From Pseudomonadota bacterium (lineage in GTDB: Bacteria > Desulfobacterota > Syntrophorhabdia > Syntrophorhabdales > Syntrophorhabdaceae), in the NCBI GenBank assembly GCA_026388275.1, contig JAPLKB010000022.1:1-52009 (forward strand): a DNA stretch of 52,009 nucleotides, written 5' to 3'. The translations under genes were made by a program, and so were the position numbers. Position 1 is the stretch's first letter. Each line of letters begins with the position of its first letter. The notes under the pieces were generated by a model. It was given only the letters and a program-made list of their open reading frames with translations, was not told the origin of the DNA and did no database searches. Positions 6,875 to 52,009 of this stretch are shown here, in pieces.

Positions 6875-8399
6875 CCCTGTAATTGCACCAAAAGAGCAGG
6901 AAATAGCAAAAACAATACTCAAAGAAATCCTTTCCCGTTTGAAATTCCTTATTGATGTGGGGCTTGATTACATTACCCTTAGCAGAAATTCCGCTACGCT
7001 TTCATCCGGTGAATCACAGAGAATACGCCTTGCAACACAGATCGGGTCAGGGCTGACGGGAGTGCTGTATGTTCTCGATGAACCCAGCATCGGGCTTCAC
7101 CAGAGGGATAACGAAAGACTCCTTGCAACGCTTAAAAGACTCCGTGACCTTGATAATACAGTGATTGTGGTAGAACATGACCAAGATACAATCATGTCAT
7201 CTGACTATGTGATAGACCTGGGTCCAGGTGCCGGTGAAAACGGAGGATATCTTGTATTTCAAGGTATACCGAAAGATCTGATAAATCACAGCGAGTCAAT
7301 AACAGGCATGTACATATCGGACAGGATGAGAATAGAGGAACCGGAAAAGAGGCGTATACCGAAGGCCTTTATTAATATCAAAGGTGCAAGGACGAATAAC
7401 CTGAAAAACATCGACGTGGATATACCGCTCGGTGTATTGACCTGTATTACTGGTGTTTCAGGATCAGGGAAAAGCAGTCTTCTTGTAGATACACTCTATC
7501 CCCTTCTCAAACAAAAACTATATAAATCCAAAGACAGGGCAGGGGAAGTGGACATGATTTCAGGCTATGAAGCAATAGACCGTGTCATAGACATTGATCA
7601 GTCTCCTATCGGAAGAACACCAAGGTCCAATCCTGCCACATATACCGGTATTTTCACTCATGTCAGGGAATTGTTTGCCAAGCTGCCTGAGTCACGGATG
7701 AGAGGATACAAAGAAGGCAGGTTCAGTTTCAATGTAAAGGGTGGCAGGTGTGAAACCTGCACGGGTGAAGGTTTTGTAAAAATTGAGATGCAGTTTCTGC
7801 CCGATGTCTATATTGTCTGCGATGTTTGTAAAGGCAAACGATACAACATGGACACGCTGGAAGTTAAATATAAAGGCAAGAGCATTGCCGATGTTCTTGA
7901 AATGACCGTTACCCAGGCTACAGAGTTTTTCGATGCCTATCCTCACATAAAAAGCAAACTCAAGGTTCTCAATGATGTAGGCCTGGGTTACATCAGACTT
8001 GGTCAGGCAGCAACCACGTTGTCCGGAGGAGAAGCGCAGCGGATCAAACTTTCAAGGGAACTTTCAAAAAGGGATACAGGAAGCACCCTTTATATACTCG
8101 ATGAACCGACCACGGGTTTGCATTTTGCAGATATCGAAAAACTGCTCCATGTGCTTTCCGAACTGGTGGAAAGGGGCAACACGATAGTAGTTATAGAGCA
8201 TAACATGGATGTAATAAAATGCGCCGACTACATTATAGATATGGGGCCTGAAGGCGGAGAAAAAGGCGGCCGTGTTATAGTAAGGGGCACTCCTGAAAAA
8301 ATAATCCTGACGGATGAGAGCTATACAGGGATGTTTTTAAAGAAATATTGGGAAGAACAGGAAGTAAAAAGGTCACAAAAAAACAAGGTAAATAAGTGA
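6756..8399 (+). CDS. uvrA: UvrA excinuclease subunit A, C-terminal part (continues in a different frame)
   Basis: Second part of UvrA. It starts inside the repeat array and continues with native sequence from about [16 protein letters not shown]. It contains the first ABC signature and Walker B ([26 protein letters not shown]), the second Walker A (GVSGSGKSS) and a zinc knuckle (CETCTGEG...CDVCKGKRY). The second signature and Walker B follow ([24 protein letters not shown]). All catalytic motifs of the C-terminal half are intact, so it has not decayed beyond the frame break. The start shown is the first TTG in the open frame and is not a convincing initiation site. Adding back the 37 bp missing from repeat unit 2 would join this frame exactly to the upstream part. 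Confidence 0.85.
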
Positions 8400-37858: not shown

Positions 37859-38635
37859 CTATGCTTTTTCTGATGCCAGAATGGCAGCACCAAGAGCACC
37901 GACTATTTGAGGCTCAACGTGAATTTTCAAACTTGCGCCTAAAACACTTTCTAGTGCTTTAACAACGCCGATGTTTTTTGCAACGCCTCCCGTCATGATA
38001 ACCTCTTCTTCAATGCCGCCCAACCTGTTGATTAAGCCCAATGTCCTGTCGGCTATTGCTTTGTGAATACCGTAGAGTATGTCATCTATCGCTTCCCCTT
38101 CACTTACAAGGGAAATAACCTCTGATTCTGCGAACACAGTGCATATACTGCTGATTGCTAATTCCTTTTTGTGTTGCAGCGATATTTCACCTATTTTATC
38201 CAGATCAACATCTAATGCCTTTGCCATTACCTCGACAAACCTTCCTGTGCCTGCGGCACATTTATCATTCATCTCAAACTCTACAACGCGTCCGGTTTTG
38301 TCTACTCTTATTGCCTTTGTATCCTGTCCGCCAATGTCAATAATTGTCCTTGCATTCGGGAAAAGATAATTTACTCCTTTTGCAATGCAGGTTATTTCTG
38401 TAATGGACTTTTGTGCAAACAAGGCCCTTTTTCTGCCGCAGCCCGTAGCAACAACAAATGAAATGTCAGAAGCCTGTTTTGATGGATAGGCAAGCACTTT
38501 TTTAAGCGCATTCTCTGCAGATTTTTTAGAATCAGCCCCGGTCTGTGCTATCTCATAGCCAAGAATGCCCTTATCCTTATCAAAAAGGAGTGCTTCTGTT
38601 GTGATCGAACCTATATCAATCCCAGCAAATAACAT
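37859..38635 (-). CDS. BadF/BcrD/HgdC-family activator ATPase
   Basis: 258 aa. ATP-driven one-electron activator with an ASKHA fold (GIDIGSITTEALL; IIDIGGQDTKAI; VIMTGGVAKNIGV). A [4Fe-4S] cluster is expected at the dimer interface from the cysteines in NDKCAAGTGR and SSICTVFAESE. Such proteins drive electrons into 2-hydroxyacyl-CoA dehydratases or class I aromatic reductases. No dehydratase or reductase subunit is adjacent, so the target is encoded elsewhere. Third gene of an operon with an acyl-CoA dehydrogenase and a biotin carrier (17-bp gap). Confidence 0.92.
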   Translation of the reverse strand: MLFAGIDIGSITTEALLFDKDKGILGYEIAQTGADSKKSAENALKKVLAYPSKQASDISFVVATGCGRKRALFAQKSITEITCIAKGVNYLFPNARTIIDIGGQDTKAIRVDKTGRVVEFEMNDKCAAGTGRFVEVMAKALDVDLDKIGEISLQHKKELAISSICTVFAESEVISLVSEGEAIDDILYGIHKAIADRTLGLINRLGGIEEEVIMTGGVAKNIGVVKALESVLGASLKIHVEPQIVGALGAAILASEKA

Positions 38636-38651
38636 GTATTAATGTTTCCTT

Positions 38652-38867
38652 TTACTCAATAATTGCAAGAACAGCATCTGCATCGACATCCTGACCAGCA
38701 GTAACTTTAATTTCTTTTATCACGCCACCTACCGGTGCTACAATAGGCATTTCCATCTTCATTGCTTCAAGGGTTGCAATCTGATCGTCTTCAGCGACTT
38801 TATCTCCAACATTCACAATAACATTAACAATTTTACCAACCATAGGAACAGTTACTTCTGTAGCCAT
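38652..38867 (-). CDS. Biotin carrier protein (biotinyl-lipoyl domain only)
   Basis: 71 aa, a single biotinyl domain. The biotinylated lysine is in the canonical EAMKMEMP motif (about residue 36). It resembles the stand-alone carriers of sodium-pumping decarboxylases and acyl-CoA carboxylases. No carboxyltransferase or membrane decarboxylase subunit is nearby. ATG follows GGAGGA. Lies between the acyl-CoA dehydrogenase and the activator. Confidence 0.93.
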   Translation of the reverse strand: MATEVTVPMVGKIVNVIVNVGDKVAEDDQIATLEAMKMEMPIVAPVGGVIKEIKVTAGQDVDADAVLAIIE

Positions 38868-38890
38868 CTTATCCTCCTTAAAATATGTTT

Positions 38891-40048
38891 TTAAGCCTTT
38901 CTGTATCCCAGAGCAAACTGGGCAATTATCATCTTCTGTACATTTGATGTGCCTTCAACAATCTGATAGGACTTTGCATCTCTTAAATATCTCTCAACGG
39001 GATATTCCGAAGAGAAGCCATAGGAACCGAATATTTTTACTGCTTCAGAAGCGCAGAAATTTGCAGATTCAGCGCAATAATATTTTGCCATAGAAGTCTC
39101 AAGCGTATTATTTATTCCCTGATCCTTCTGCCACGCTGCTCTGTAAAGAAGGAGTTTTGCTGCATCATGCTCGACCGACATTCTTCCGATCTGCTCCTGA
39201 ATCATCTGGAACTGGCCTATTGCCTGGCCAAACTGCTCTCTCTCATTAGCATATTTACAGGCTTCTTCGATACATGCCTGTGATACGCCGACTGCTCTGG
39301 CTGCTGAACTTAAACGTGTAAAGTTAAGCATGGTCATGCAAATGTTAAAACCCTGACCAGGTTTTCCTACAAGGGCGCTTTTCGGTATCTTTGCTTCTTC
39401 AAAGAAAATTTCTCCGGTAGGTGCGCAGTGGAGGCCGAGCTTTGTTGTAATAGCTCTCTGAGTAATGCCGGGGGCATTAAAATCAATAAAGAATGCTGAC
39501 ATACCTTTGTGTTTTGCTGCTGTGTCTGTCATGGCATAAACAATACCGCAACCGCAGTAAGGTACGCCGGATATCCATGTTTTTGTACCGTTCAGAATAT
39601 ATCCGTCATCAACTTCTTTGGCAGTTGTCTTCATGCTTGCCACGTCAGAACCTGAATTTGGCTCTGTTATTGCAAAACAGCCGCCGCTTGTTCCTGCGAT
39701 CAACCCAGGTAAAAACTGTTCTTTTAATTCCTCGCTTCCAAATTTGAGAAGTGCGTTCTGAGGACCGTTCATCTGAAGGTTAAAGGGAAGTCCCCATGAA
39801 GGGCTTACTCTTGCGAATTCCATTGCCATAAGGGTTGCTGCCGTATGGCCTTCCTCAAGTCCAAGTCCACCGTACTGTTCCGGAGCAATACAACCGAACA
39901 TGCCCTGATCACCCATTTTTTTCAGAATCTCAGGACGATATTTAGATTCTTTCTCGTCTTCTTCCATAGTAGGTTTAATATTTTTTACAGCAAAATCATA
40001 GGCCATTTTACGCATTGATTCAAGTTCGTCAGAAAATTTGAATTCCAT
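38891..40048 (-). CDS. Acyl-CoA dehydrogenase
   Basis: 385 aa FAD enzyme forming enoyl-CoA. Family signatures are present: CFAITEPNSGSDVASMKTTA (FAD/substrate site), REQFGQAIGQFQMIQ, and the catalytic glutamate in YQIVEGTSNVQ near residue 366. The layout (dehydrogenase, biotin carrier, activator) would suit glutaryl-CoA, crotonyl-CoA or benzoyl-CoA-derived intermediates, but substrate cannot be assigned. ATG follows GAAAGGAGAGG. A strong promoter lies 46-74 bp upstream. Confidence 0.93.
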   Translation of the reverse strand: MEFKFSDELESMRKMAYDFAVKNIKPTMEEDEKESKYRPEILKKMGDQGMFGCIAPEQYGGLGLEEGHTAATLMAMEFARVSPSWGLPFNLQMNGPQNALLKFGSEELKEQFLPGLIAGTSGGCFAITEPNSGSDVASMKTTAKEVDDGYILNGTKTWISGVPYCGCGIVYAMTDTAAKHKGMSAFFIDFNAPGITQRAITTKLGLHCAPTGEIFFEEAKIPKSALVGKPGQGFNICMTMLNFTRLSSAARAVGVSQACIEEACKYANEREQFGQAIGQFQMIQEQIGRMSVEHDAAKLLLYRAAWQKDQGINNTLETSMAKYYCAESANFCASEAVKIFGSYGFSSEYPVERYLRDAKSYQIVEGTSNVQKMIIAQFALGYRKA

Positions 40049-40093
40049 TATTTTCCTCTCCTTTCAATAAGAATGTGAAACAATTAACAAACT

Positions 40094-40122
40094 ATATTAG
40101 CAAAGCATATTTTTCATGTCAA
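40094..40122 (-). promoter_or_regulatory. Sigma-70-type promoter of the acyl-CoA dehydrogenase operon
   Basis: On the minus strand: TTGACA (40117-40122, perfect consensus), 17-bp spacer, TAATAT (40094-40099). It predicts transcription starting about 40 bp before the ATG. The rest of the gap to 40359 is AT-rich and has no gene. Confidence 0.75.
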
Positions 40123-40359
40123 GCTTATTTTTTTAAAATGAGCAGGTGTTTACGGTTAATATTAAAAGGTTAACTATGAGAAGACAACGACAGATTGTGA
40201 ATATAGTTTGAATTAAAAAAGGCAGGGATATAAAATTAACTGCTGCTGTTATGAAGGATTTTTTTATAATATTATGAAAATTCGAAAATGATTGCGAAGG
40301 CGGACAGGCTTTATATATAATTTATTGTAGTCAGTAATTAAACGATTCAGGGAGAAGTT

Positions 40360-41289
40360 TTGATTTTTAATAAAACGGGTTTGGTTAAGGATGATTTATA
40401 TGTAACAGGTTTTCCATGGTCGCCGGTTTATCTTTTAGCTTCTGAACACCCGGTTATTTTCGAAGCAGGATTTTGCTGTATGGGCAGACATTATGAAAAA
40501 GATATAGTAAAACTATTGTATGAAAAAAAACCAGAGATGCTTTTTATAACACATGTTCACTATGATCATTGCGGAGCTGCGACATATCTGAAAAATGTAT
40601 TTGAAGGCTTGAAAATAGGTGCGTCCAGAAGAGCTTCAGAGATAATACAAAGACCTAACGCGCAGGCATTAATGGTTAACTTAAGCGAAAATGTAATTAA
40701 ATTAATTGAAAATATGGACAGTGTAAACAATGAAATGCTTGTTAGAGATCAATTTGAACCTTTTTATGTTGATACGATTCTTGAAGACGGACAGATAATT
40801 GATTTTAAGAACGGTTTATCCGTCCATGTTATAGCGAGTCCGGGGCATACAAGAGATATGTTGAGTTATTATATACCTGAGAAGAAATTTCTAATAGCAA
40901 CAGAAACTGCTGGCTGCATGAGCCATACCGGCTCTATAATTACCGAATTTCTTGTTGATTACAATGATTACATAACATCCTTAAAGAGGCTTGCCAACCT
41001 GGAAGTAGATGTTTTATGTCAGGGACATCATTTTGTTTTTACCGGCAGTGACGTAAAGGAGCATTTTGAACGCTCTATTATTTCAGCAGAAAAGTTCAAA
41101 GAGACTGTCGAAGGACTTCTGAAATCAGAAGACAACTCAATTGAACAGGTAGTATCAATGATTAAAGCTCAGGAATATGATCCTAATCCTGGACCTAAGC
41201 AGCCCGAGAAGGCGTATTTGCTTAACCTGAGAAAAAGGGTAGGGCATCTGGCTGAAAAAATTGGGGCAAAAAAACATGACGACAATTAG
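40360..41289 (+). CDS. MBL-fold metallo-hydrolase
   Basis: 309 aa. The metallo-beta-lactamase fold motif is THVHYDHCG (HxHxDH, residues about 69-77), with the next ligand in SPGHTRDM and a late QGHHF. The bridging-aspartate position appears as Glu in IATETAG, which is uncommon. The C-terminal helical extension includes DPNPGPKQPEKAYLL. The start is TTG with GGGAG upstream; no in-frame ATG fits the N-terminus. Members of this group include thioesterases and lactonases; the neighbouring acyl-CoA genes make a thioesterase role plausible but unproven. Confidence 0.85.
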   Translation: MIFNKTGLVKDDLYVTGFPWSPVYLLASEHPVIFEAGFCCMGRHYEKDIVKLLYEKKPEMLFITHVHYDHCGAATYLKNVFEGLKIGASRRASEIIQRPNAQALMVNLSENVIKLIENMDSVNNEMLVRDQFEPFYVDTILEDGQIIDFKNGLSVHVIASPGHTRDMLSYYIPEKKFLIATETAGCMSHTGSIITEFLVDYNDYITSLKRLANLEVDVLCQGHHFVFTGSDVKEHFERSIISAEKFKETVEGLLKSEDNSIEQVVSMIKAQEYDPNPGPKQPEKAYLLNLRKRVGHLAEKIGAKKHDDN

Positions 41290-41568
41290 TAATATGTTGT
41301 GAATAACCATCATTATTATATAATTATAAGGTAAAATGCCATGACAATTGTAGTAGCCCCCAATTAAGACCATATGGTAGGCTCTACTTAAAAATGTTAC
41401 AACGATGCCTGGATAACAAAACTGCCTTACGAGTATCTTTTGTGGTTTTTGTCGGATCTTGTTATAGAAGAACCCTGAGGTGGACTGTGCAAGAGTAGAC
41501 AATGGATTTGGGGGGTTGCTCAACCATTGCGTTCCATTCATTGCATTTATTCGGGGACATGTGGTAAG
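41290..41568. other. Intergenic region before the ModE-like gene
   Basis: No gene seen. It must carry the regulator's promoter. No clear -35/-10 pair or ModE-type palindrome was identified by eye. Confidence 0.4.
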
Positions 41569-41970
41569 ATGGAAATCATGAAGATTTGTTTCAGGATATG
41601 GCTTGACAATGACGGGAGAGCGTTTGGCGAAGGATCTTATCGCCTCTTGAAAGCCATTCAGAGGACGGGGTCGCTCAATCATGCGAGTACGGAAATGGGA
41701 ATGTCCTATCGGAAAGCATGGGACGTTCTCAACGTAACCGAAAAAAGACTCGGGTTTGAGCTCGTAGAAAGAAAAACTGGTGGTAAGTCGGGGGGAGGTA
41801 CAGCTCTGACTTCTGAAGGCCGTGCTTTTGTAAACCAATACGAGCAACTCCGGCAGGAGGCAAGCGAAGCATTGGATAGCCTGTACCATAAGTACTTTCC
41901 AGAGCCGGAGACCGATGCAACGGGGGCGTCAAAAAAAGACCCTGATGAAGTAACCACATTTGCCGAATAA
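41569..41970 (+). CDS. ModE-like winged-helix regulator without molbindin domains
   Basis: 133 aa. LysR/ModE-type winged helix (EGSYRLLKAIQRTGSLNHAS; GMSYRKAWDVLNVTEKRLGF; ELVERKTGGKSGGGTALTSEG), the DNA-binding domain of ModE. The C-terminal molybdate/tungstate-binding TOBE domains are missing. Such one-domain forms are common near Mo/W enzyme genes. It lies next to the end of the tungsten-type AOR cluster, so it may control AOR or metal-uptake genes. The start is ATG 41569 or ATG 41578; the latter has a weak GGA. Confidence 0.85.
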   Translation: MEIMKICFRIWLDNDGRAFGEGSYRLLKAIQRTGSLNHASTEMGMSYRKAWDVLNVTEKRLGFELVERKTGGKSGGGTALTSEGRAFVNQYEQLRQEASEALDSLYHKYFPEPETDATGASKKDPDEVTTFAE

Positions 41971-42046
41971 TGCTTGTCCAGGAATTTGTTGACGGATCAT
42001 TAAAAACATTGCTGTGGACACCAGAGCAGATGCTTTTCGCAATCGG

Positions 42047-43291
42047 CTAATTGGCTGGATTACTTATTGCCCTCATCAGTTTTAGCATACGAGGGGCTTG
42101 AAAGATGAGGCTCCTCTTAAGGTTATTCGGTAATAACAGGCCTCTGTCATGATTGAGAATGGCCGAGGTTATGCCGGTCCATGAATCGTCGCTAATGATC
42201 TGTGCTCCAATTAATTGCATATCTTTTGTCAGTAAACGAATATATCCTTTTGAGGATTTTATTTCGGTAGCCGTACAATCCGCCATGGATTGCGAAGTGG
42301 GCCCAAAAGAAAAGACAAAAGTATTGAACATGTTGACAACAATAAAAGAGAAGCTGCCATGATAAAGTTTTTTTCCTCCGACAGCATTAATTCCGGCAAC
42401 TGAGCCTTGCGCAACAGCGTTGGGCCAGAGCATATTGAGCACAGGCAGCCCTGTAACAAGGTCGCGTGATTCTATACAGTCGCCACAGGCCCAGATACTT
42501 GGATCACTGGTCTTGAGTGAGATATCGGTGGCAATGCCCCCCGTCTTCCCGATCTTAACTCCAGCCTTCTCCGCAATATCTATGGAAGGACTAACACCGA
42601 CAGCGAATACTACCATATCTGCCGGAATTCTGCTCTTGGTTGTTAATACGGCCTCTACCCGATCCTTTCCTGCCAGACTCTGCACCCGCTCTCCCACCAT
42701 GACTTCTATTCCGGCTTCAGTAAGCATACTCTGAACAATGCTTGCCGGGTAATCATCAAGAATGGCAGGTAACAGTCGGTTTGCCAACTCTATGAGGCAG
42801 ACCTTCATCCCCCGCATGTTAAGGGCAACGGCTGCCTCTACCCCGATTGGCCCTGACCCCACTACAACAACTCTTTTACCCGGCCACTTCATCAGACTAT
42901 CTACGTCATTTAATGTCTTAAACTGGAACACTCCCGGGAGATGGATTCCCGTGAATGGCGGGGTAAGTCCATGGCCGCCAAGGGCCAAAATGAGGCGGTC
43001 GTAAGAGAAAGTGCCTTGATTGAGAATCAATAATTTCCTTGGTGGGTCTATCTCAACGATCTTTGTGTCCGTCATAAACGAGACATGTTCCATTGCCGGA
43101 CTGTAATCCCCTCGGATGAAAAGGCGGTCTCGTGAAATTTCTCCGGCTACATAGTAAGGAAGAAGACAAGGCGAGTACAGGGGAAGCGGATCCTTCGAGA
43201 TCACGATGATTTCAATATTATGCGAGATTTCCAATGCATAGCGACAGGCAGCATGACTGGCTATACCGCTTCCAATAACGACAAGCCTCAA
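42047..43291 (-). CDS. FAD/NAD(P)H-dependent oxidoreductase of the NADH-oxidase/CoA-disulfide-reductase type
   Basis: 414 aa. FAD site GSGIASHAA (residues 7-15), NAD(P) site VVVVGSGPIGVEAAVAL, and a C-terminal FAD segment WACGDCIES. Cys42 (LYSPCLLPYY) sits where the redox-active Cys lies in NADH oxidase and CoA-disulfide reductase. The dimerisation domain is shorter than usual. The start is TTG with GGGAG upstream. It is the last gene of a minus-strand set: ferredoxin, AOR, this flavoprotein. It probably links reduced ferredoxin or AOR electrons to NAD(P)H. Confidence 0.9.
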   Translation of the reverse strand: MRLVVIGSGIASHAACRYALEISHNIEIIVISKDPLPLYSPCLLPYYVAGEISRDRLFIRGDYSPAMEHVSFMTDTKIVEIDPPRKLLILNQGTFSYDRLILALGGHGLTPPFTGIHLPGVFQFKTLNDVDSLMKWPGKRVVVVGSGPIGVEAAVALNMRGMKVCLIELANRLLPAILDDYPASIVQSMLTEAGIEVMVGERVQSLAGKDRVEAVLTTKSRIPADMVVFAVGVSPSIDIAEKAGVKIGKTGGIATDISLKTSDPSIWACGDCIESRDLVTGLPVLNMLWPNAVAQGSVAGINAVGGKKLYHGSFSFIVVNMFNTFVFSFGPTSQSMADCTATEIKSSKGYIRLLTKDMQLIGAQIISDDSWTGITSAILNHDRGLLLPNNLKRSLIFQAPRMLKLMRAISNPAN

Positions 43292-43396
43292 GAATTAAGC
43301 TCCCATTTTCTTATTGATCCACAATTCACAGTCGTAATGACTTCCAGGCGGTTCCTCAATGTGATACATCATAAAACGACAGTCTTTTATTGTTCT

Positions 43397-45388
43397 TCAC
43401 AATTTTAAATCCCGGGAGAGATCCTCGATCCCGAGTTCTTTCAGTTTTTCCTTAGTGGGTAGACCGCGATCGGACCATCCTCTCAAGCTATAATATTCAT
43501 TCAGCGTCTGTTCCCATGGAACCATCTTCCCTCGCCATATACCGCGCTTCGCGGCCTCATATACCCTTTCGTCGGACCATCGGTCCTGATTTCTGTCCCA
43601 TCCTTTTAGCCGATAATTAAAAAGTCGCTGGGCGTTAAAAATACGCTCTCCGGTGCGCATTACTTCATCATAGTCTGTGTTCCACCCTGTGATGTGATTG
43701 AGTATTTCAGAATAGAATGTCGGACCGATACCTATCAGGAGATATTGACCTGTTGCGCCAAACATACAGGTGACCAGCGAGTTGAAGAGGCCGACGAGAT
43801 TCTCCGACCAAATTGCGCTAAGCGCTTTCCCTTCGGTGCCCCCAATCCAATCTATGTCGGCTTTGGGAGGGTTTCCAAAGAGTTTTTCTTTTAGTGCTGG
43901 CGGTAAGTCCACCCGATCGACAAGGATATCATAGACTTCCTGACATGTCTTTCCCACAAAATTGGGATATGTATCTCGGTTTTTGGGCAAGAACGACAGC
44001 TCCCATATACCATGACATCGAAGCCAATCGCCGCCTCTCGGACTTGTCAGAAAGCCGAGTGCCCAGGTCAGAGCTTGAAGGTTAGGATCACGTAAGAGAT
44101 AGGGCTTTCCCTTCACGCAAGGTGCAATTTTTTCAGAACCCCTTCCGATCCTTTGGCTGGCTTGGGCTACTCCATCGGCTAAAAGATTGCCAAGGTCTCC
44201 TTCCCGATACGCCACCTTCCGTATTATATCCCAAATAAGATCCTCGTCTCCAAAACGGAGAACCACTCCGTCTGTTTCCTTTTCAGTAAGAATCCCTCGC
44301 TCAAAACATTCAACGGCCCAACTAAAAGCCTGGCTGAAAGACGCAGGATCAAGCCCGAGCTCTTGAATAATTCTTTCATAATAGATAATTGCATTCAAAT
44401 CCTTGAGTTTCAGATTCTCCAGAGACGAAAAAAAGAATGTCATATGTCCACCGAGTTGTCTCAAGCCCGCATACCGGCCTTCTTTTACCTGGAGCCAGTG
44501 ATAGCATCTTCCAGGGCAGTTGAGACAACCTACGTTTTTCAGGTGGGGGAAATCCGCGGACAAGGCATTCTCCCTTACCATTTTCCCGTTAACCGGTGCC
44601 CCGACAGTTGTCAATAGATATGTCGTGGCCCCATATTCCTCCCAGAGCTTAATGAGGGGATCAGATGTATAAGCCTTGATTGCACGGTAGGAGGCGTCCA
44701 AAAGACTTTTGGGGTCATGAAGCGAGATTTCTCCTGTCCCGCGCACAGCCAGGGCCTTAAGCTTCTTTGCTCCCATGACAGCCCCGCCGCCTGTCCTTCC
44801 CGGACATGAAGTCCCATCAGCACAGGGGGGCGAATAAGGCACGAGGTGCTCACCCGCCACGGATGCTGTTAATACACGGATTTCACCTTCGTAATTCTCT
44901 TCCAGTTCCTCGCGAATAGCCTTGACGGTTTCTCCTGTCTGCTTGCCCCAAATATGAGATGCATCCCTGAAAGTTATGGTTGCATCATCGATGAAGACAT
45001 ATTTAGGGGTTTTTGCCTGCCCTCTCACAATAACTACATCGAAGCCTGCATATTTCAATGCTGCCGGATACATCCAACCGAAAGACCCTGAGCCGAAAGC
45101 CCCTGTTTCAGGGCTAATACAACCTAACATAGCGCGTCCACCCCAGGGAGCTACAGTAGCTGTCCAGGGTCCGGTGGCTATGATCAATTCATTGTCTGGA
45201 CCCAAAGGATCAATGGGCTCGGGAAAATCTTTCCACAGGATTTTTGTTATGAGACCATCGCCTCCCAACCACAACCTTGGGTCGATTTCATATTTGTTAA
45301 AAAAATCTTCGGTTGGTAGAATCAATGCTTTCTCTTCCGTAAGGTCAATAATAGCGACATTCCCGGCGTATCCCTTCGGGAGGCTCAT
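43397..45388 (-). CDS. aor: Tungsten-type aldehyde:ferredoxin oxidoreductase (AOR family) 1
   Basis: 663 aa. AOR oxidises aldehydes to acids (or reduces acids) with tungstopterin and ferredoxin. The N-terminal pterin domain has GYAGNVAIIDLT and the APWGGRAMLG region. The [4Fe-4S] ligands C288, C291 and C295 (CLNCPGRC) agree in number with Pyrococcus AOR, and C541 (TCMFGATG) is the fourth. Also present are ETDGVVLRFGD and SPRGGDWLRCHG. The gene sits between a four-cluster ferredoxin upstream (19-bp gap) and an FAD oxidoreductase downstream. No sign of decay. Confidence 0.93.
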   Translation of the reverse strand: MSLPKGYAGNVAIIDLTEEKALILPTEDFFNKYEIDPRLWLGGDGLITKILWKDFPEPIDPLGPDNELIIATGPWTATVAPWGGRAMLGCISPETGAFGSGSFGWMYPAALKYAGFDVVIVRGQAKTPKYVFIDDATITFRDASHIWGKQTGETVKAIREELEENYEGEIRVLTASVAGEHLVPYSPPCADGTSCPGRTGGGAVMGAKKLKALAVRGTGEISLHDPKSLLDASYRAIKAYTSDPLIKLWEEYGATTYLLTTVGAPVNGKMVRENALSADFPHLKNVGCLNCPGRCYHWLQVKEGRYAGLRQLGGHMTFFFSSLENLKLKDLNAIIYYERIIQELGLDPASFSQAFSWAVECFERGILTEKETDGVVLRFGDEDLIWDIIRKVAYREGDLGNLLADGVAQASQRIGRGSEKIAPCVKGKPYLLRDPNLQALTWALGFLTSPRGGDWLRCHGIWELSFLPKNRDTYPNFVGKTCQEVYDILVDRVDLPPALKEKLFGNPPKADIDWIGGTEGKALSAIWSENLVGLFNSLVTCMFGATGQYLLIGIGPTFYSEILNHITGWNTDYDEVMRTGERIFNAQRLFNYRLKGWDRNQDRWSDERVYEAAKRGIWRGKMVPWEQTLNEYYSLRGWSDRGLPTKEKLKELGIEDLSRDLKL

Positions 45389-45407
45389 TGTATTCCTCCT
45401 GTTAAAA

Positions 45408-45929
45408 TCATGGTTCGCTCCGTTCTAACATGCCTTTCATCATTTTTCTTGCAGTCTTCATCCTCTTATCCAAGGAGGCTTGTTCGACCGGAACAAATTT
45501 CAAGGCTCCTGGCTGACAGAACCTTACACATTGCGGATCTCCCCCGCAAAGCTCGCATTTGAATACTGTTTTTTCTCCCTGATTGAAAGAGATTGCGCCG
45601 AAGTAACAGGCCATAAGGCACGTTCGACACCCGACGCACATTGTCCGATCAATGGTCATCGCGCCTGTTGTATTATCTCTTCCGATTGCTGCAACAGGGC
45701 ATACAATGGAACAGATCGGCTCTTCACACTGCTGACAGCCGACGAGTGCGAAAATAAGTTCATCCTCCTCATCCATTCTGGTGAGAGCGTGTCCTTCATG
45801 CCGGATGATCTGAAGGCGGGCCCTTGATAAGCTTGTTCGCCCTTCATTGTGAGTGGCACAGGTTGTCATGCAGTGCATACATCCTGTGCACAAGTAGGGA
45901 TCGAAAACGAGGACCTTCTTTTCCATCAT
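45408..45929 (-). CDS. Four-[4Fe-4S] ferredoxin partner of AOR 1
   Basis: 173 aa. Cysteine motifs for four clusters: CTGCMHCMTTC, CQQCEEPICSIVCP, CVGCRTCLMAC and CELCGGDPQCVRFC. The layout is that of AorB/HycB/BamC-type electron-transfer subunits. ATG (MMEKK) with GGAG upstream. It is the first gene of the minus-strand AOR operon; a possible FNR-type site lies 204 bp upstream. Confidence 0.93.
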   Translation of the reverse strand: MMEKKVLVFDPYLCTGCMHCMTTCATHNEGRTSLSRARLQIIRHEGHALTRMDEEDELIFALVGCQQCEEPICSIVCPVAAIGRDNTTGAMTIDRTMCVGCRTCLMACYFGAISFNQGEKTVFKCELCGGDPQCVRFCQPGALKFVPVEQASLDKRMKTARKMMKGMLERSEP

Positions 45930-46122
45930 TCAACTCCTTCACTTAAGAAGTTTCATACATCCTGTTTTATATCGCAGAGTATCCAATAATTTGAACACTG
46001 CTGTCAATAGTAGACACCAAAATATTCACGGCAATTTATTCTCAATATTAGTGGAGAAACTAACTTTAGGGATGGGACAATAATGTGGGGCAGGTCATAT
46101 TTTTTGACACGACCAGCACCTG

Positions 46123-46404
46123 TTATCGGTATGTGATAATAATCACTTGCCACCTCTCACGAAGAAGGACGGTAACGGACATGCTCACCTCGATAACCGA
46201 GGAAATCTTTGTCTTTGTTTCTTCCATAGGGTCCTGCTCGATTGCTGGTACATCGAAGAAATCATTATCTCCGAGAAGCATATCAAACTTGCAGGACAGG
46301 CACCCCTTCTCGATCTTGTCAAGTGTGTGCTTTTCCTCTCCGAGAAGCTTTTTCTGGTGCTCAATATTGCAGAAGCATGTGCAATTGTACAAATAAAAAA
46401 ACAA
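46123..46404 (-). CDS. Uncertain small reading frame between the divergent AOR clusters
   Basis: Frame with a plausible acidic-basic composition (LLGEEKHTLDKIEKG; CLSCKFDMLLGDNDFF; ETKTKISSVIEVSMSV) on the minus strand. The start is a TTG without a Shine-Dalgarno. The 5' end overlaps the promoter region of the plus-strand operon and the 3' end overlaps the FNR-like palindrome. It has no recognisable family. It may be a degraded gene, or not coding at all. Confidence 0.3.
   Translation of the reverse strand: MFFYLYNCTCFCNIEHQKKLLGEEKHTLDKIEKGCLSCKFDMLLGDNDFFDVPAIEQDPMEETKTKISSVIEVSMSVTVLLRERWQVIIITYR
46133..46146. promoter_or_regulatory. FNR/CRP-type palindrome between the two AOR operons
   Basis: GTGAT-AATA-ATCAC, a perfect palindrome, keeps the TGAT-N4-ATCA core of FNR-family sites (TTGAT-N4-ATCAA). 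It lies about 200 bp upstream of the minus-strand ferredoxin and about 270 bp upstream of the plus-strand promoter. It could be an anaerobic-regulator operator, but position and single copy leave it tentative. Confidence 0.45.
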
Positions 46405-46414
46405 ATATAAATTG

Positions 46415-46444
46415 TTGACAATACGATATTATGAATGATATAAA
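46415..46444 (+). promoter_or_regulatory. Sigma-70-type promoter of the LUD/HdrB-AOR 2 operon
   Basis: TTGACA (46415-46420), 18-bp spacer, TATAAA (46439-46444). It drives the plus-strand operon starting at 46764, implying a leader of about 310 nt. The leader holds no recognised riboswitch or gene. Confidence 0.65.
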
Positions 46445-46763
46445 ATCCTTACACATTATGGCGGAAAAAAAACATTATGCTTTATTAGACATAACGAGTT
46501 TGGTAAGGCCATTATATTTTTTTAGGCAAATAAAGATTCAAAACACGAAGGTGTATCATGAGTAAGACAATTGTTATTTTCTTCACAAATAAATCCTTGA
46601 TATATCGATATAGACGTCAAGATATAACGATGATATGAGTAGGCAGGGACAAGGTTAGTATGCTTTCCCGGAATGAACATACTAGCGAGGCGATTATGTT
46701 TTTGGCGAATGCAGGAGCATGCATGATTATGGTAGTGGTAAAAAAAATAGTGCGGGAGGTCTA

Positions 46764-48080
46764 ATGACAAGGATTCCCGGCATAATAGTTGTTGAGCCGT
46801 CGGCCGAGCAGAGCAAATATCGGGCCGCCGAGGTGTTTGCCAGGAAACAGCCCAAACAGCTCAAACTCAGTAACGACATTGAATCGGTTAAAGAACACCT
46901 CAGGGAGGTTAGACACGAGGCGAGAGATGATAACGCAAAACTTTTGGAGCGTCTGAAGAATACACTTGCAGGTTTCGGCGTAAACGTGAGGATTGCCGCG
47001 GACGGCAAAGAGGCAGCATCAGCTATTCGGCAAATTGCAGGAGATACCAGGCTTGCTTCTATCAACAAGTCGAATATAGTTGTCAATGAAATTCGCCCCG
47101 ACCTTAAGTCTCAGGGCTTTGAAACATATATAAGGTATTTCACAGAGTTCAGTAAGAACTTCGAGCCGGAAGTATTTAAGAAAGAACTTGAAGATTACTG
47201 GTCGTTAGCAGGAATGCATGACCGGGGTTTGATGGAGTCTTTTGCCGTCAGGAAGAAATTCAGCTCCCTGCCTAAGGGGGATATACGTGACTATGTTGTA
47301 ATACTTGGCGTAAACGCGATCTCTGCGGAGAACGGCGATGTCTTTTTCCTCCAGCATATGTCCAACATCTCCCACGATTTGGAACAGGCCAGGAAAGTCA
47401 TTCTTGTGGTTGGTATAGAGAAAGTAGCGAAAGATAGCGATACAGCCCTATTTCACACACGATCAATGGGCATCTTCGGTCTGGAAAGTATTCTCCTCGA
47501 CCTCAAACCAAACGATCTTGAAAGATTTGATTTCGATGGACTGCCCGTCCTTGCTGACCAACCGGAACGTTCTATCGACGTCATTATCCTCGATAACGGG
47601 AGAAGTAAGCTTCTCAATGGAATTTACGAAGATCTTTTTCTCTGCATCGACTGTCGCAACTGCGCCCGTCAGTGCCCTATAGGTCTTCATGTCTTCTTCG
47701 AAAGAGGCCTGGTCTACAGCCCAAAGAACTATCTACTTGGCTTCCTGCAGGGTTTTCTGCCGCCAGTAGATGCCTGTCTGCATTGCGGTCGATGCCACGT
47801 AGAGTGCCCAGTTGAGATAGACATACCAACCTTGATCTGGAAGGCCCAACTGGAACATTACGAACACCATAAGAGGAGCTTGAAAAAGAGGATGCTCGAC
47901 GATCCTGAAATGCTGGCCAAGATGGGTACATTGACTGCCCCGCTCTCTAACTGGATGGTACATATTCCCATAGTGCAATATATGACCGAGCTTTTTACCG
48001 GTGTTCATCGAAACTCCCATTTGCCCACATTCCATCGAGAGACATTCAGGGACTGGTTCAAAGGAGGTAAACGTGGCTGA
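46764..48080 (+). CDS. LUD-domain iron-sulfur protein (LutB-like)
   Basis: 438 aa. Residues about 60-290 form a LUD domain like the first part of LutB/YkgF (KSNIVVNEIRPDLKSQGFE; VVILGVNAISAENGDVFFLQ; ILVVGIEKVAK). Near residues 300-370 are two [4Fe-4S] motifs (CIDCRNCARQCPIG; CLHCGRCHVECPVEID). With the CCG-domain protein encoded next (8-bp overlap) it forms a pair like LutB/LutA or the two halves of HdrD, moving electrons between Fe-S clusters. Start ATG 46764 with GGGAGG upstream. First gene of a five-gene plus-strand operon. Confidence 0.88.
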   Translation: MTRIPGIIVVEPSAEQSKYRAAEVFARKQPKQLKLSNDIESVKEHLREVRHEARDDNAKLLERLKNTLAGFGVNVRIAADGKEAASAIRQIAGDTRLASINKSNIVVNEIRPDLKSQGFETYIRYFTEFSKNFEPEVFKKELEDYWSLAGMHDRGLMESFAVRKKFSSLPKGDIRDYVVILGVNAISAENGDVFFLQHMSNISHDLEQARKVILVVGIEKVAKDSDTALFHTRSMGIFGLESILLDLKPNDLERFDFDGLPVLADQPERSIDVIILDNGRSKLLNGIYEDLFLCIDCRNCARQCPIGLHVFFERGLVYSPKNYLLGFLQGFLPPVDACLHCGRCHVECPVEIDIPTLIWKAQLEHYEHHKRSLKKRMLDDPEMLAKMGTLTAPLSNWMVHIPIVQYMTELFTGVHRNSHLPTFHRETFRDWFKGGKRG

Positions 48081-48810
48081 TAAGATCGTTTACTACCACG
48101 GCTGCTTTGCAAACTACTACAATCCTGACATGGGCAAGTCGCTGGTCGAGGTGATGGAGAAGAACGGTTTCGAGGTGATTGTTCCTGATCAGAAGTGCTG
48201 CGGCATGCCGCAGATGGCCAATAGTGCCGTGGAGGGCGCAAGGAAGAATTATGACTTCAACATGAATTCTCTCGCAAATGCTGCAGCCCCGGGGTACGAC
48301 ATCATAACGACCTGCCCCAGTTGCAACATGATGATAAAGAGAGAGGGCTTACCGTTCTTTGACAGTGACGCTGCCCGGTTTGTGGGAGAGCGTGTTTATG
48401 ATGCCTCGCAGTACCTAGTTAAGTTGTACGCTCAGGGCAGATTGGATACACGTTTCGGAGAAATAAAACTGAAAGTTTTTTATCACAATCCCTGCCACTT
48501 AAAAGTGCAAAATTTAAGAGATTCAATAACGATTCTCAAGATGATACCCGGTATAGAGATCGTTAGCGTCAATACGAACTGTTGCGGCATGGGCGGTTCT
48601 TACGGCATGAAGAAGCAGAATTATGCCCGGTCTACGGAGATCGCCAGCAAGATCTGGACTGAGGCCAAGAACTCTGGGGCAGATCTGGCTGCTACCGAGT
48701 GTGGAGGGTGCGGGCTTCAGATCGAGGCCGGCACCGGTATGAAGGTGACACACCCAATCATACTTGTAAATCAAGCTTACAAGGCGTTCAAGGAACAGGA
48801 TGCTGCCTGA
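48073..48810 (+). CDS. CCG-domain iron-sulfur protein (HdrB/LutA-like)
   Basis: 245 aa with two CCG domains: VYYHGCFANYYNP...KCCGMPQ...CPSC and FYHNPCHLK...NCCGMGGSYG...CGGC. These bind a non-cubane or [4Fe-4S] cluster as in HdrB and GlpC/LutA. The protein is soluble. Start GTG at 48073 with AAGGAGG, overlapping the previous gene by 8 bp. Together with the LUD protein it is the probable electron partner of AOR 2. Confidence 0.9.
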   Translation: MADKIVYYHGCFANYYNPDMGKSLVEVMEKNGFEVIVPDQKCCGMPQMANSAVEGARKNYDFNMNSLANAAAPGYDIITTCPSCNMMIKREGLPFFDSDAARFVGERVYDASQYLVKLYAQGRLDTRFGEIKLKVFYHNPCHLKVQNLRDSITILKMIPGIEIVSVNTNCCGMGGSYGMKKQNYARSTEIASKIWTEAKNSGADLAATECGGCGLQIEAGTGMKVTHPIILVNQAYKAFKEQDAA

Positions 48811-48893
48811 CCGCTTTGAAGGACGAACACGCGGACCCGCGGATGTAAAAGGTTCGCTATTCGACAAATATATTTAAAGAATGGAGGATGACC

Positions 48894-49196
48894 ATGGCAG
48901 ACGACAAATCAACTGCAGAAAGCCTACGAAGCACACGCACGTATGGTCAGGTTCGATGCATGAACCCGAGCTGCGAGGCAAGAATTACCCCGGCCCCTGG
49001 GCAGACCAAGGCAACATGTCCTAAATGCGGCTCCGAGTGGCGAATTTTCTGGATCAAGGCGGGATTTCCGAGGGTGAAAGGCCCTGTATGGGAAACCAGC
49101 CAGAGACTGGCCAATGAGAGATTGGCCCAGATGGCCGCCGCACCGGCTGCAAAGCCCGCACCGGCTGCAAAGGCTGAAAAGAAGGAGGGAAAGTAA
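48894..49196 (+). CDS. Small zinc-ribbon/rubredoxin-like protein of the AOR operon
   Basis: 100 aa. One ribbon-type metal site: CMNPSC...CPKCGSEW (residues about 20-48), so Zn or Fe binding is likely. A low-complexity Ala/Pro/Lys tail (APAAKPAPAAKAEKKEG) ends the protein. Start ATG 48894 because GGAGG lies 7 nt upstream. It is directly followed by AOR 2 (1-bp gap), so it is co-translated. The role is unknown; it could help assembly, metal insertion or electron transfer. Confidence 0.8.
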   Translation: MADDKSTAESLRSTRTYGQVRCMNPSCEARITPAPGQTKATCPKCGSEWRIFWIKAGFPRVKGPVWETSQRLANERLAQMAAAPAAKPAPAAKAEKKEGK

Positions 49197-49197
49197 T

Positions 49198-51165
49198 ATG
49201 GCTTTAGATAGAAAAATAGCTATTGTAAACCTTACTACCGGCCAGATAGATATAAAACCTATCACGCTGGAGATGAGGAAGCAGTTTCTTGGTGGGAGAG
49301 GTATGGCTGCATATCTGCTCTACAAGAATTCAAAACCGGGTTGTGATCCCTTAAGCCCTGATAACGCGGTCATATTCAGCGCCGGAATCCTTAGCGGTAT
49401 GCCCGCTTCCGCGACGTCCAGGACCGATGTTATGACAAAAAACCCCCTTACCGGACTATTGGGAAGCGGTAACTTTGGCGGCTTCTTTGCTGCTGAGCTC
49501 CATTATGCAGGGTTTGAGAATATCTGCGTGGTGGGCAAGGCCTCAAAACCGGTCTATCTTTTTGTGAATGATGGCGAAGTAAAGATAATGGATGCAAAGA
49601 ACCTCTGGGGAAAATCGGTTACAGAAGCCCAGTGGGCAGTAAGAGAGGAGCTGGGGGACCGTGACGTGATGTGTGCTGTGAGCGGCCCGGCTGGCGAAAA
49701 ATTGGTACGATATGCCAATACCATGACCGGTATCAAGAATGCTAACGGAAGAGGCGGTGGTGGATGCACGATGGGCTCGAAGAACCTGAAGATGGTTGCG
49801 GCCCGTGGCACCATGGATATAAAGATAGCGCATCCCAGGGAGGCCCTGGAATTCGACAAGAGATTTATCGAACAGATCACAAGCGCGAAAGTCAATCAGA
49901 CCATGGGCACGCTGGGAACACCCTTTATATGGGGCGCAACAAACTCATGGGGTGGTATCAGGACGAACAACTTCCAGTATAACCAGCTCCTGTACTGTGA
50001 CGAGATCGAACCTGAAAACATAGATGAATGGTCAAAGGAAAGTATGGGCAGCGAATATAATATGGCCGCCTGCTTCGGTTGCCAGGTTCACTGTCGGGCA
50101 AAATATAAGATTCCAGACACGCCGCTGGCGCGGAAATGGGGTCTGGTCGGCAAATACGATGAAGGCCCAGAATATACGTCTCAGGGCGCTTTCTGCGGTG
50201 AGCCGGGATGTACTCATCTCGATACACTGCTCATGGGTAATCACCTTGTTGATCAGTATGGAGTTGACAACCTGGAAATCGGCAGCCTTATCTCCTGGGC
50301 AATGGAGCTTTACGAGGCAGGCATACTTACAAGCAAAGACACTGATGGTCTTGATCTGCGGTTCGGAAACGATGACGCCGTGATTGCAATGATACACCAC
50401 GTCTGCAAGAGAGACACATGGCTGGGCAATGTACTGGCTGAGGGTGGTATCAGGGCATCAGAGACGATCGGCAAAGACTCATTTAAGTACTTAATTCACA
50501 TGAAGGGCATGAGTAACCTTCACTCAGACGAAAGAGCAACACCGGCTCTTGCGCTGAATCTTGCGCTTGCATCAAGAGGTTCCGACCACCTGAGAAGCCG
50601 TCCGGCTATCGACCTTTACCACTTGCCGGTCGATGTCATGAGAAGAATATACAGCAGTCCTGTTCCATACGAAGGACCGTTGAGCTCTGACCACACTGAA
50701 TACATAGGCAAACCATGGCAGGTTGTATGGCATGAGAACTGCTACATGGCCGTTGACTGCCTGGGAATATGTAAGTACCATACAACATTCCTCGGTGCTA
50801 CACTACCTAACTTCGAAGACTGGGCCAAGGTGCTCTATTTCAATACGGGACTTGAGATGTCGCCAAAAGACATCTGGGATGTGTCGGAAAGGGCCAACAT
50901 GGTGGAGAGACTCTTTAATCTGAGGGAAGGCATGAAGAAGGACGATCCATACAAAGGTGAAGTCCTAGCGGAACGTTACTTTGAAGAGCCTTGCCGACGC
51001 GGAGCACCGGATGTTATCGGCAAGAAAATCGACAGAGAGAAGTTCGTAGAGATGAGAGGACTCTTCTACAAGTACAAAGGCTTGGATGAGAATGGCGTGC
51101 CTACAGCCGAGTCTCTGAAGAAGTATGGACTCGAGAACCTCGACAAAGAACCGTCCCGCGTATAA
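49198..51165 (+). CDS. AOR-family tungsten oxidoreductase 2 (BamB-like size and context)
   Basis: 655 aa. AOR fold with KIAIVNLTTGQIDIK, FLGGRGMAAYLLY, the [4Fe-4S] ligands C292, C295 and C299 (CFGCQVHC), DTDGLDLRFGND, ASRGSDHLRSRP and a late CLGIC. It differs clearly from AOR 1. Length and the directly following four-cluster ferredoxin resemble BamB-BamC, the active-site module of class II benzoyl-CoA reductase; an aldehyde oxidoreductase is the alternative. Start ATG with GAAGGAGG. The DNA here looks more GC-rich than the rest of the window. Confidence 0.92.
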   Translation: MALDRKIAIVNLTTGQIDIKPITLEMRKQFLGGRGMAAYLLYKNSKPGCDPLSPDNAVIFSAGILSGMPASATSRTDVMTKNPLTGLLGSGNFGGFFAAELHYAGFENICVVGKASKPVYLFVNDGEVKIMDAKNLWGKSVTEAQWAVREELGDRDVMCAVSGPAGEKLVRYANTMTGIKNANGRGGGGCTMGSKNLKMVAARGTMDIKIAHPREALEFDKRFIEQITSAKVNQTMGTLGTPFIWGATNSWGGIRTNNFQYNQLLYCDEIEPENIDEWSKESMGSEYNMAACFGCQVHCRAKYKIPDTPLARKWGLVGKYDEGPEYTSQGAFCGEPGCTHLDTLLMGNHLVDQYGVDNLEIGSLISWAMELYEAGILTSKDTDGLDLRFGNDDAVIAMIHHVCKRDTWLGNVLAEGGIRASETIGKDSFKYLIHMKGMSNLHSDERATPALALNLALASRGSDHLRSRPAIDLYHLPVDVMRRIYSSPVPYEGPLSSDHTEYIGKPWQVVWHENCYMAVDCLGICKYHTTFLGATLPNFEDWAKVLYFNTGLEMSPKDIWDVSERANMVERLFNLREGMKKDDPYKGEVLAERYFEEPCRRGAPDVIGKKIDREKFVEMRGLFYKYKGLDENGVPTAESLKKYGLENLDKEPSRV

Positions 51166-51192
51166 GGCGAGAGAACATAAAGGAGGATTATA

Positions 51193-51699
51193 ATGCAACA
51201 ACCGAAAGTTCTTATGATAAATCACGAAAAATGCACGGGCTGCAGGAGATGCGAGCTCGTTTGTTCTATCTTTCATGAGGGTGTAGCAAACCCTTCCAAG
51301 GCCCGTATAAAGGTTGAGAAATGGGAATGGGAGGGTCTCTACATTCCTATGTCCTGTCGTCAGTGCGTGGATGCGCCATGCATGAATGTGTGTCCTGTTA
51401 AGGCAATTAGCCGTGATGAGGCCGACGCGCGCGTTAGCGTGGATCAGGATCTCTGCATAGGCTGCCGCTCATGTGTGGCTGTATGTCCCTTTGGCGCCAT
51501 GAACTTCAACAAGACGGAGCGGAAGGTCTATAAGTGTGACCTTTGCGATGGCGATCCCCAGTGCGTCAGGTTCTGCGACATGAAGGCAGTTGACTTTGTT
51601 GATCCGACCAAAGAGGCATTGAGCAAGAAGCGGGATGCGGCCCAGAAAATAGCGGATGCCAAGAAAGTGGCAACCGAGTTGTTAGCGAGCCAGCTGTAG
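51193..51699 (+). CDS. Four-[4Fe-4S] ferredoxin partner of AOR 2 (BamC-like)
   Basis: 168 aa. Cysteine motifs CTGCRRCELVC, CRQCVDAPCMNVCP, CIGCRSCVAVCP and CDLCDGDPQCVRFC predict four clusters. It is homologous in layout to the ferredoxin of AOR 1 (45408-45929), so the two clusters share an ancestor. A Lys/Ala-rich helix ends the protein. Start ATG with AAAGGAGG. Last gene of the operon. Confidence 0.93.
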   Translation: MQQPKVLMINHEKCTGCRRCELVCSIFHEGVANPSKARIKVEKWEWEGLYIPMSCRQCVDAPCMNVCPVKAISRDEADARVSVDQDLCIGCRSCVAVCPFGAMNFNKTERKVYKCDLCDGDPQCVRFCDMKAVDFVDPTKEALSKKRDAAQKIADAKKVATELLASQL

Positions 51700-51717
51700 A
51701 CCAATAAGTATTTGAAA

Positions 51718-52009
51718 TCAGGTAGGAGAAGCGGGGTTACCCCCGCTCCTCCTACCACACCATCCAGCATACGGTTTCATACCAAAACGGTTCCTGTAAT
51801 GCCACTTTCTTTTTAACTTCTTGTTTGTCTTTCCTGTATACGCAGCCCATCCGTATCTTATAATTCTCGGCTTAATACGATTTTTTAGGGCTTTTTTATC
51901 TCCATAAAACCTCTTCAATGATCTTGCTCTTGAGACTTTTATTTGATCCCCGGTGAACTCTCACCAACTCCTTGAGGTACGCAAAGCAACCGTCTAGTGA
52001 GTTTGTGGT
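51718..52009 (-). other. Unidentified basic reading frame at the right edge
   Basis: The minus strand has a Lys/Arg/Trp/Tyr-rich frame, with SRARSLKRFYGDKKALKN, IIRYGWAAYTGKTNKKLKR and KWHYRNRFGMKPYAGWCGR, ending at 51718. Upstream in the same frame the open part goes back to about 51960 and then meets a stop. It has no good start codon. The composition looks like a nucleic-acid-binding protein or the tail of a mobile-element protein, but no family is recognised. Confidence 0.35.
51721..51756 (+). terminator. Strong hairpin at the end of the AOR 2 operon
   Basis: GGTAGGAG-A-AGCGGGG / CCCCGCT-C-CTCCTACC, 15 pairs with one mismatch and a 4-nt loop, beginning 21 bp after the ferredoxin stop. 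No T-run follows. It also forms the 3' end of the minus-strand frame described next, so it may belong to a repeat or mobile element rather than be a terminator. Confidence 0.5.

Follow-up and report, generated by a model that had tools for sequence, protein, structure and literature searches.

A zinc-ribbon protein and a four-cluster small subunit accompany a separate clade of AOR-type proteins in Desulfobacterota

Results

We analyzed a window of 52,009 nucleotides, the whole of contig 22 of the 71 in a 3.5-Mb genome (JAPLKB010000022.1) whose closest named relatives are metagenome-assembled genomes of the Syntrophorhabdaceae. The contig ends 310 bases past the last gene of a plus-strand operon (46764-51699), our main subject, which encodes a protein of the aldehyde ferredoxin oxidoreductase (AOR) type that we call AOR 2. 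A second set of genes, on the minus strand and diverging from the operon, encodes another such protein, AOR 1; the whole genome holds seven AOR-type genes. An earlier note on this DNA had described the plus-strand set as a LUD/Fe-S protein, a CCG protein, a zinc ribbon, AOR 2, and a ferredoxin. Comparison of ten window genes with Pfam and NCBIfam, and of the AORs, ferredoxins, and flavin adenine dinucleotide (FAD) protein also with solved structures, upheld these five as genuine open reading frames (ORFs) whose domain matches lie far above the chance level. We found no published description of the operon in the open-access literature, and Rfam gave no match in 40000-52009.

The first two genes encode an electron-transfer module. 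The first (46764..48080, plus strand) specifies a LutB-like protein with a LUD-type N-terminal domain and two copies of the motif CxxCxxCxxxCP, corresponding to two [4Fe-4S] clusters. Its scores lie below the family cut-offs for both LUD_dom (E=4e-4, 20.6 bits; cut-off, 22.6) and the LutB family TIGR00273 (79 bits; cut-off, 444.8). An AlphaFold model of modest quality (mean predicted local distance difference test score [pLDDT], 67) had one significant Foldseek match, LutB chain 9a6l_B of a LutA-LutB model (E=1.6e-13, TM 0.5). The second gene (48073..48810, plus strand) overlaps the first by 8 bases and specifies a LutA/GlpC/HdrB-type protein with two CCG domains (PF02754, 1e-26), which scored 255 bits against the C-terminal part of GlpC, slightly below the cut-off of 278.

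The zinc ribbon follows at 48888..49196 on the same strand, a protein of 102 amino acids of the C4 type with the motif RCxNPxC...CPxCG...W...PRxxGPVW, and one base past its stop codon begins AOR 2 (49198..51165, plus strand). AOR 2 has both the N-terminal and C-terminal AFOR domains that characterize the AOR/WOR family (PF01314, 4e-90; PF02730, 8e-68), and it is predicted to be a large subunit (WorL) with a tungsten or molybdenum bis-metallopterin and one [4Fe-4S] cluster. The last gene (51193..51699, plus strand) specifies a WorS-type small subunit with 16 Cys, corresponding to four [4Fe-4S] clusters, which scored 145 bits to AorA (8c0z), 143 to AmWorS (9mqx_E), and 52 to BamC. Such a four-cluster small subunit adjoining WorL is a feature of Class II WORs. 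The subunit for FAD and nicotinamide adenine dinucleotide (NAD) that marks Class III was absent from 46764-51699, with the contig ending 310 bases on, and was also absent directly after the operon in G023, a genome of the same genus. Likewise, we saw no WorABC or BamG-I-type module, as in Class IV, in the operon up to that contig end.

To follow the operon in relatives, we scanned the best 80 of 270 related named genomes for orthologues and a sample of 395 Desulfobacterota genomes for co-occurrence. The AOR 2 set, the paralogues, and all co-occurrence counts refer to this phylum only. Forty-nine genomes, about one-eighth of the sample, carried AOR 2 at 47% identity or more (≥47%, with the partial matches in G352 and G255 counted in), and 346 did not. 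An invariant core consists of the ribbon, AOR 2, and the four-cluster small subunit. The small subunit lay directly downstream of AOR 2 wherever the contig permits the test, both in the 80 named loci and in the same-phylum genomes. The zinc ribbon adjoined AOR 2 in all 44 testable genomes, directly upstream in 38 and downstream at the operon end in 6; in the remaining 5 of the 49, the match lay at or near a contig end or was split over contigs, or no ribbon was found (G239, 81% complete).

The place held by the LutB/LutA pair varies around this core. All five genes occur together in ten genomes (that of the window, G023, G022, G020, G044, G043, G001, G002, G003, and G209). Elsewhere, 16 loci have in this position a TmcC/HmcE-like membrane protein bearing two [4Fe-4S] motifs and 5 loci have HdrA with HdrC, and a FAD subunit (WorN, NADH-FAD) lies downstream in G066, G261, G102, G065, and G339. 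This constant catalytic core with a changing electron partner is our main structural finding. The five-gene order proposed earlier thus persists in part, with ribbon, AOR 2, and ferredoxin kept together and the LUD/CCG pair replaceable; the earlier note had missed this replaceability, the invariance of the zinc ribbon, and the linkage to bam genes described below. Proteins of the LutA/GlpC and TmcC types are tied to the quinone pool, and those of the WorN type to NAD. Partners of these kinds favor oxidation, and the electrons probably pass to quinone or NAD. The proposal of a low-potential reductase was not supported; the exchangeable partners would point rather to oxidation.

We compared AOR 2 with PfAOR (from Pyrococcus furiosus), AmWOR1, AaAOR, and Geobacter metallireducens BamB in an alignment, using PfAOR numbering. 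The Cys residues for the [4Fe-4S] cluster at 288, 291, 295, and 494 are kept in AOR 1, AOR 2, and 110/110 AOR 2 orthologues, a set of sequences in which some loci share a genome and which so does not stand for 110 independent genomes. AOR 2 retains Thr243, Glu311, Tyr312, and His448. In AORs, the second shell consists of Thr243, Glu313, Tyr427, and His448, with Glu313 as the proposed proton acceptor (PMC12096430). AOR 2 has Thr, Thr, Ser, and His at these positions and falls outside the AORs in this strict sense. The exchanges of Glu313 to Thr and Tyr427 to Ser, with Thr243 and His448 retained, are found in every one of the 110 orthologues.

Residues that define BamB were absent as well. BamB uses Cys322 as a tungsten ligand and Glu251, His255, Glu257, and His260 as Zn or proton-relay residues (PMC12096430). 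The Cys322 position holds Asp in 105 and Glu in 5 of the 110 orthologues, the other four positions are Gly, Ser, Gly, and Arg in AOR 2, and at position 448 AOR 2 has His where BamB has Gln. These results answer the active-site comparison with BamB in the negative.

A maximum-likelihood tree of 50 sequences placed the 31 AOR 2 rows in a clade with 100/100 support, apart from PfAOR, CaAOR, AmWOR1, and AaAOR and from BamB. The BamB rows formed their own 100/100 clade, and the classical AORs formed one with 98/95 support. Approximately unbiased (AU) tests of the sister group of the AOR 2 clade gave p values of 0.475 for BamB, 0.208 for the classical AORs, and 0.188 for AOR 1, with long branches involved. 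The tree and residues together indicate that AOR 2 is neither a BamB nor an ordinary AOR; its clade in Desulfobacterota stands apart with full support. The phylogeny thus agrees with the expectation that this gene set (LUD/CCG/zinc-ribbon/AOR 2) differs from the Geobacter bam operon, as does the togetherness of these genes in relatives.

From these data, we favor, at a probability of roughly 0.6, the reading that the five plus-strand genes are a conserved operon and encode a cytoplasmic tungsten-type AOR/WOR oxidoreductase of an uncharacterized clade, which serves anaerobic aromatic (benzoyl-CoA) catabolism. Alternatively, AOR 2 could be an ordinary aldehyde oxidoreductase that hands its electrons to a new acceptor and serves to detoxify or oxidize aldehydes; this seems unlikely to us, though it deserves to be taken seriously. 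The best match of AOR 2 to a solved structure was to P. furiosus AOR (292 bits, against a partial match of 192 bits to BamB), and two of the second-shell residues, Thr243 and His448, are retained. Exchangeable acceptors also occur in Class II-IV WORs (PMC13328260). Moreover, PfASOR still has aldehyde activity although its Thr is lost and its Tyr is replaced by His (PMC12096430). Since an enzyme altered at two of these four positions works on aldehydes, the substitutions in AOR 2 do not necessarily abolish aldehyde chemistry. However, the Thr/Ser pair is fixed in all orthologues, while the AORs on contigs C20 and C41 of the same genome keep the full second shell, and the AOR 2 clade is separate from the classical AORs in the tree.

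Support for an enzyme of its own kind also comes from the zinc ribbon. A profile search for it detected 51 of the 395 genomes, namely, 47 of the 49 with AOR 2 and 4 of the 346 without. In 18 diverse members, Arg23, the four Cys, Arg52, Trp55, Gly65, Pro66, and Trp68 are invariant. In the distant relatives G066, G261, G102, G065, G339, and G126, the ribbon stands at the operon end, in the first five after the FAD subunit, and the motif RCxxC...CPxCG.xWR..W......xGPVW is kept. The protein had no Pfam match above cut-off and no NCBIfam match and belongs to no curated family. Foldseek matched its model (pLDDT 77) to nothing significantly (best E, 1.2), and VIA-align placed the LysW family first, weakly (Z 4.7).

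This generic fold and faint LysW-like similarity would fit a small protein of transcription or translation that is carried along in the operon and is not a partner of the enzyme. We consider such a rider quite improbable given its near-perfect co-occurrence with AOR 2, its adjacency in two different operon positions beside AORs down to ~49% identity, and the weak ribbon matches found even beside AOR relatives of 37-39% identity (G253 and G386). The ribbon is most likely either a bound structural subunit or a maturation factor specific to the enzyme; a carrier like LysW, to which its model bears a weak similarity, is the least likely of its possible roles.

The link to aromatic catabolism rests on genomic association with benzoyl-CoA reductase. 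BamB is present in 43 of the 49 genomes with AOR 2 versus 62 of the 346 others (Fisher p 4e-22, not corrected for ancestry), and the two co-occur in 18 of the 20 families that have AOR 2. In G209, the genes LUD-CCG-ZNR-AOR 2-WorS-BamB-BamC-BamD-FdhD (ZNR being the zinc ribbon) all run in one direction, headed by a divergent IclR gene, and in G055 and G255, AOR 2 adjoins BamB on the same strand. At 55 of 86 loci, AOR 2 has an IclR-type gene, mostly divergent, at a distance of ≤9 kb; an IclR gene is listed together with the benzoate-induced genes of Geobacter metallireducens (PMC1924859). Genes for an acyl-CoA dehydrogenase and a biotin carrier lie ~9-10 kb upstream of the window operon, and homologues of both are found ~7.5 kb upstream of AOR 2 at loci L077 and L081.

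Could AOR 2 itself then be a BamB-type aromatic-ring or acyl-CoA reductase in which the LUD/CCG pair replaces BamD-I? The linkage to bamBCD in G209, the BamB neighbors in G055 and G255, the co-occurrence with BamB, and the common ancestor with BamB that the AU test did not reject (p 0.475) would suit this reading, and the size and order of AOR 2 and its ferredoxin do resemble BamB-BamC, as had been pointed out. Beyond size and order, the resemblance failed. Neither Cys322 nor Glu251, His255, Glu257, and His260 is present, His448 stands in place of the Gln of BamB, the small subunit has 16 rather than 12 Cys (four clusters versus three), the bit scores are low, and the acceptor modules of most relatives lack a bifurcating unit. 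Furthermore, the same genome has a true BamB on contig C46, which scored 1111 bits against BamB structure 4z3w and is followed by BamC-, BamD-, BamE-, and BamF-like genes. The residues, cluster count, tree, and true BamB together rule out AOR 2 and its ferredoxin as BamBC, and we regard a BamB-type reductase in the wider sense as very doubtful.

Several other genes were seen around bam-type and AOR 2 loci. On contig C31 of this genome, a second, divergent BamB-type gene (L041, G000:C31, 6752-16999; 686 bits to 4z3w and 55% to the first) has downstream genes laid out like bamC-F, with an IclR gene just upstream and a radical-SAM gene ~15 kb on. A protein resembling radical-SAM enzymes (weak match to PF04055, none to NCBIfam) is found near AOR 2 at 30 of 86 loci (e.g., L097 and L131) and in 16 of the 395 genomes, 14 of these with AOR 2; this genome has a copy at G000:C31:42169-43464. 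At 19 loci, AOR 2 has a gene for a EutA protein (PF06277) nearby. In the window, genes for an acyl-CoA dehydrogenase, a biotin-carrier-like protein, and a BadF/HgdC-like ATPase stand in a row at 37859-40048.

The minus-strand set comprises a small subunit with 16 Cys for four [4Fe-4S] clusters (45408..45929), AOR 1 as the large subunit (43397..45388; PF02730, 2e-52; PF01314, 4e-76), and an AorC/WorN-like subunit of the FAD/NAD(P)-disulfide-reductase type (42047..43291; PF07992, 1e-57; 144 bits to AorC chain 8c0z_E). The FAD/NAD subunit in the operon is a Class III WOR feature. These three genes were recognized correctly before as real ORFs with domain matches; the ModE-like gene placed at the end of the set was not part of it. 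That gene (41527..41970; TIGR00637, 85 bits, below the cut-off of 98.5) encodes a DNA-binding protein. It lies on the plus strand and runs toward the FAD gene, and it therefore does not close the minus-strand operon. In its second shell, AOR 1 keeps Thr243 and has Thr for Glu313, Arg for Tyr427, and Trp for His448, with Gln at the BamB Cys322 position. Because three of the four second-shell residues are missing, AOR 1, too, is probably no ordinary AOR.

AOR 1 is rare. Among 46 genomes of the class, we found one relative (64%, G045), and among 297 genomes of the phylum sample, scored on the top four first-look candidates of each, there was none besides its own. It is absent from G023, the sole genome of the same genus searched, where IclR and radical-SAM genes stand instead. 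In G045, the small subunit, AOR 1, and FAD genes lie together, with the FAD gene first and no AOR 2 genes nearby in the stretch. The AOR 1 set is thus a separate, rare AorABC-like enzyme and a chance neighbor of the AOR 2 operon, and the juxtaposition of AOR 1 and AOR 2 appears private to this genome.

The two ferredoxins do share a layout: they are 39% identical, and their 16 Cys are spaced almost alike except for one 10-residue insertion. The conclusion once drawn from this layout, that the clusters as units are old paralogues, did not survive: AOR 1 and AOR 2 are homologues at the family level (28% identity), their sisterhood was not settled by the AU test, and the distribution rules out one old unit of both. 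Nor is the arrangement around one control region conserved. The gap of 834 bp between the divergent start codons (45930..46763) is where most AOR 2 relatives have a divergent IclR-type regulator gene, and it contains three promoter-like sites versus 3.2 expected from shuffles, along with three terminator-like sites versus 0.6 expected. That the divergent clusters, each with an AOR and a 16-Cys ferredoxin, form one functional unit of old paralogues with a shared control region is highly implausible, as G023 and all other phylum-sample genomes lack AOR 1, its G045 relative has no AOR 2 genes nearby, and AOR 2 relatives have IclR in that place.

Other features of this genome and its relatives concern different genes. 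At L039 (G000:C70, 420-5507), MvhD-, MvhG-, MvhA-, and hydrogenase maturation protease-like genes precede an AOR and a 4Fe-4S subunit, a possible AOR-[NiFe] hydrogenase operon as judged by eye from the sequences. At L158 (G290, 2170-4011), an AOR 2 relative has downstream of it, in the same orientation, a second AOR that falls on the side of the classical AORs in the tree. On the minus strand of the window at 1-2970, a formate-dehydrogenase-type protein is encoded by two ORFs parted by one in-frame TGA (2397-2395), very likely a selenocysteine codon, that is followed by HSSTVAGLAASFGRGAMTNHW. Finally, perfect tandem repeats at 6570-6875 split a uvrA-like gene into two ORFs; 17 matches to the 29-bp core of the repeat (≤2 mismatches) are spread over 12-13 contigs of the genome, and a reversed control had none.

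Discussion

A core that always includes the zinc ribbon and is often linked to bam genes probably represents a new redox step in anaerobic aromatic breakdown. In the mechanism that we propose, a substrate of an aromatic pathway would be oxidized at the W-bis-metallopterin site of AOR 2. Because the catalytic Glu/Tyr pair is Thr/Ser, this substrate need not be a free aldehyde. By analogy with AorABC and AmWOR1, single electrons would pass through the [4Fe-4S] cluster of AOR 2 and then the four clusters of the small subunit, with which AOR 2 would form a complex. They would then reach the exchangeable acceptor, in this operon the LutB-like/LutA-like pair and in relatives a TmcC-like anchor, HdrA/HdrC, or a NADH-FAD subunit, and from there quinone or NAD. 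An IclR-type regulator would be paired with the system in most lineages. A bolder version is that the enzyme performs chemistry beyond aldehyde oxidation and benzoyl-CoA reduction, with the obligate zinc ribbon acting in catalysis or substrate presentation and the respiratory module of each host plugged in; we regard this as unlikely but worth considering.

Several findings weigh against the reading that we favor. The HdrA-type modules of some relatives would permit electron bifurcation and a reductive role. The AU tests rejected sisterhood of the AOR 2 clade neither to BamB nor to the classical AORs. Since 62 genomes have BamB without AOR 2 and 6 have AOR 2 without a BamB that we saw, the two are not obligatory partners, and the divergent IclR gene of most relatives is absent from the window.

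If the bolder version above is correct, AOR 2 would supply a missing redox step into the benzoyl-CoA pathway of uncultured sulfate reducers and syntrophs. Only 5 of 92 WOR clades have a member of known role (PMC13328260). The three-gene core with its unannotated zinc-ribbon partner is a concrete target for co-expression, and the fixed active-site signature lets annotators stop labeling AOR 2 as "aldehyde ferredoxin oxidoreductase" or BamB. Modules that change around a constant core also provide a natural experiment in how an enzyme is wired to quinone, NAD, or Hdr-type carriers.

Among known systems, the AOR 2 enzyme resembles the Class II and III WORs (WorLS and WorLSN, including PfASOR, CbGOR, and AorABC of Aromatoleum aromaticum) in pairing a large W-cofactor subunit with a four-[4Fe-4S] small subunit. 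It differs from them in its obligate zinc ribbon, the LutB/LutA-type module in the window, and the Glu313-to-Thr and Tyr427-to-Ser exchanges; none of these three traits appears in the five-class WOR scheme as presented in the portion available (PMC13328260). The AOR 1 set shares with AorABC the order of small, large, and FAD subunits in the Class III layout, but AOR 1 and AaAOR do not fall together in the tree, and AOR 1 has its own residues at 313, 427, and 448. The electron module of the window resembles LutA-LutB, LdhH, and GlpC, where a LUD protein with two clusters likewise adjoins a two-CCG protein; in the window pair, no LutC is seen adjacent, a tungsten-type enzyme is encoded downstream, and the scores lie below the family cut-offs. 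Lastly, BamBC of Geobacter metallireducens also has an AOR-type large subunit followed by a ferredoxin and is found in the same genomes as the AOR 2 set and, in three, in the same gene string, whereas the AOR 2 set has no W-ligating Cys, no Zn-site residues, and no BamD-I partners, and it carries four small-subunit clusters in place of three.

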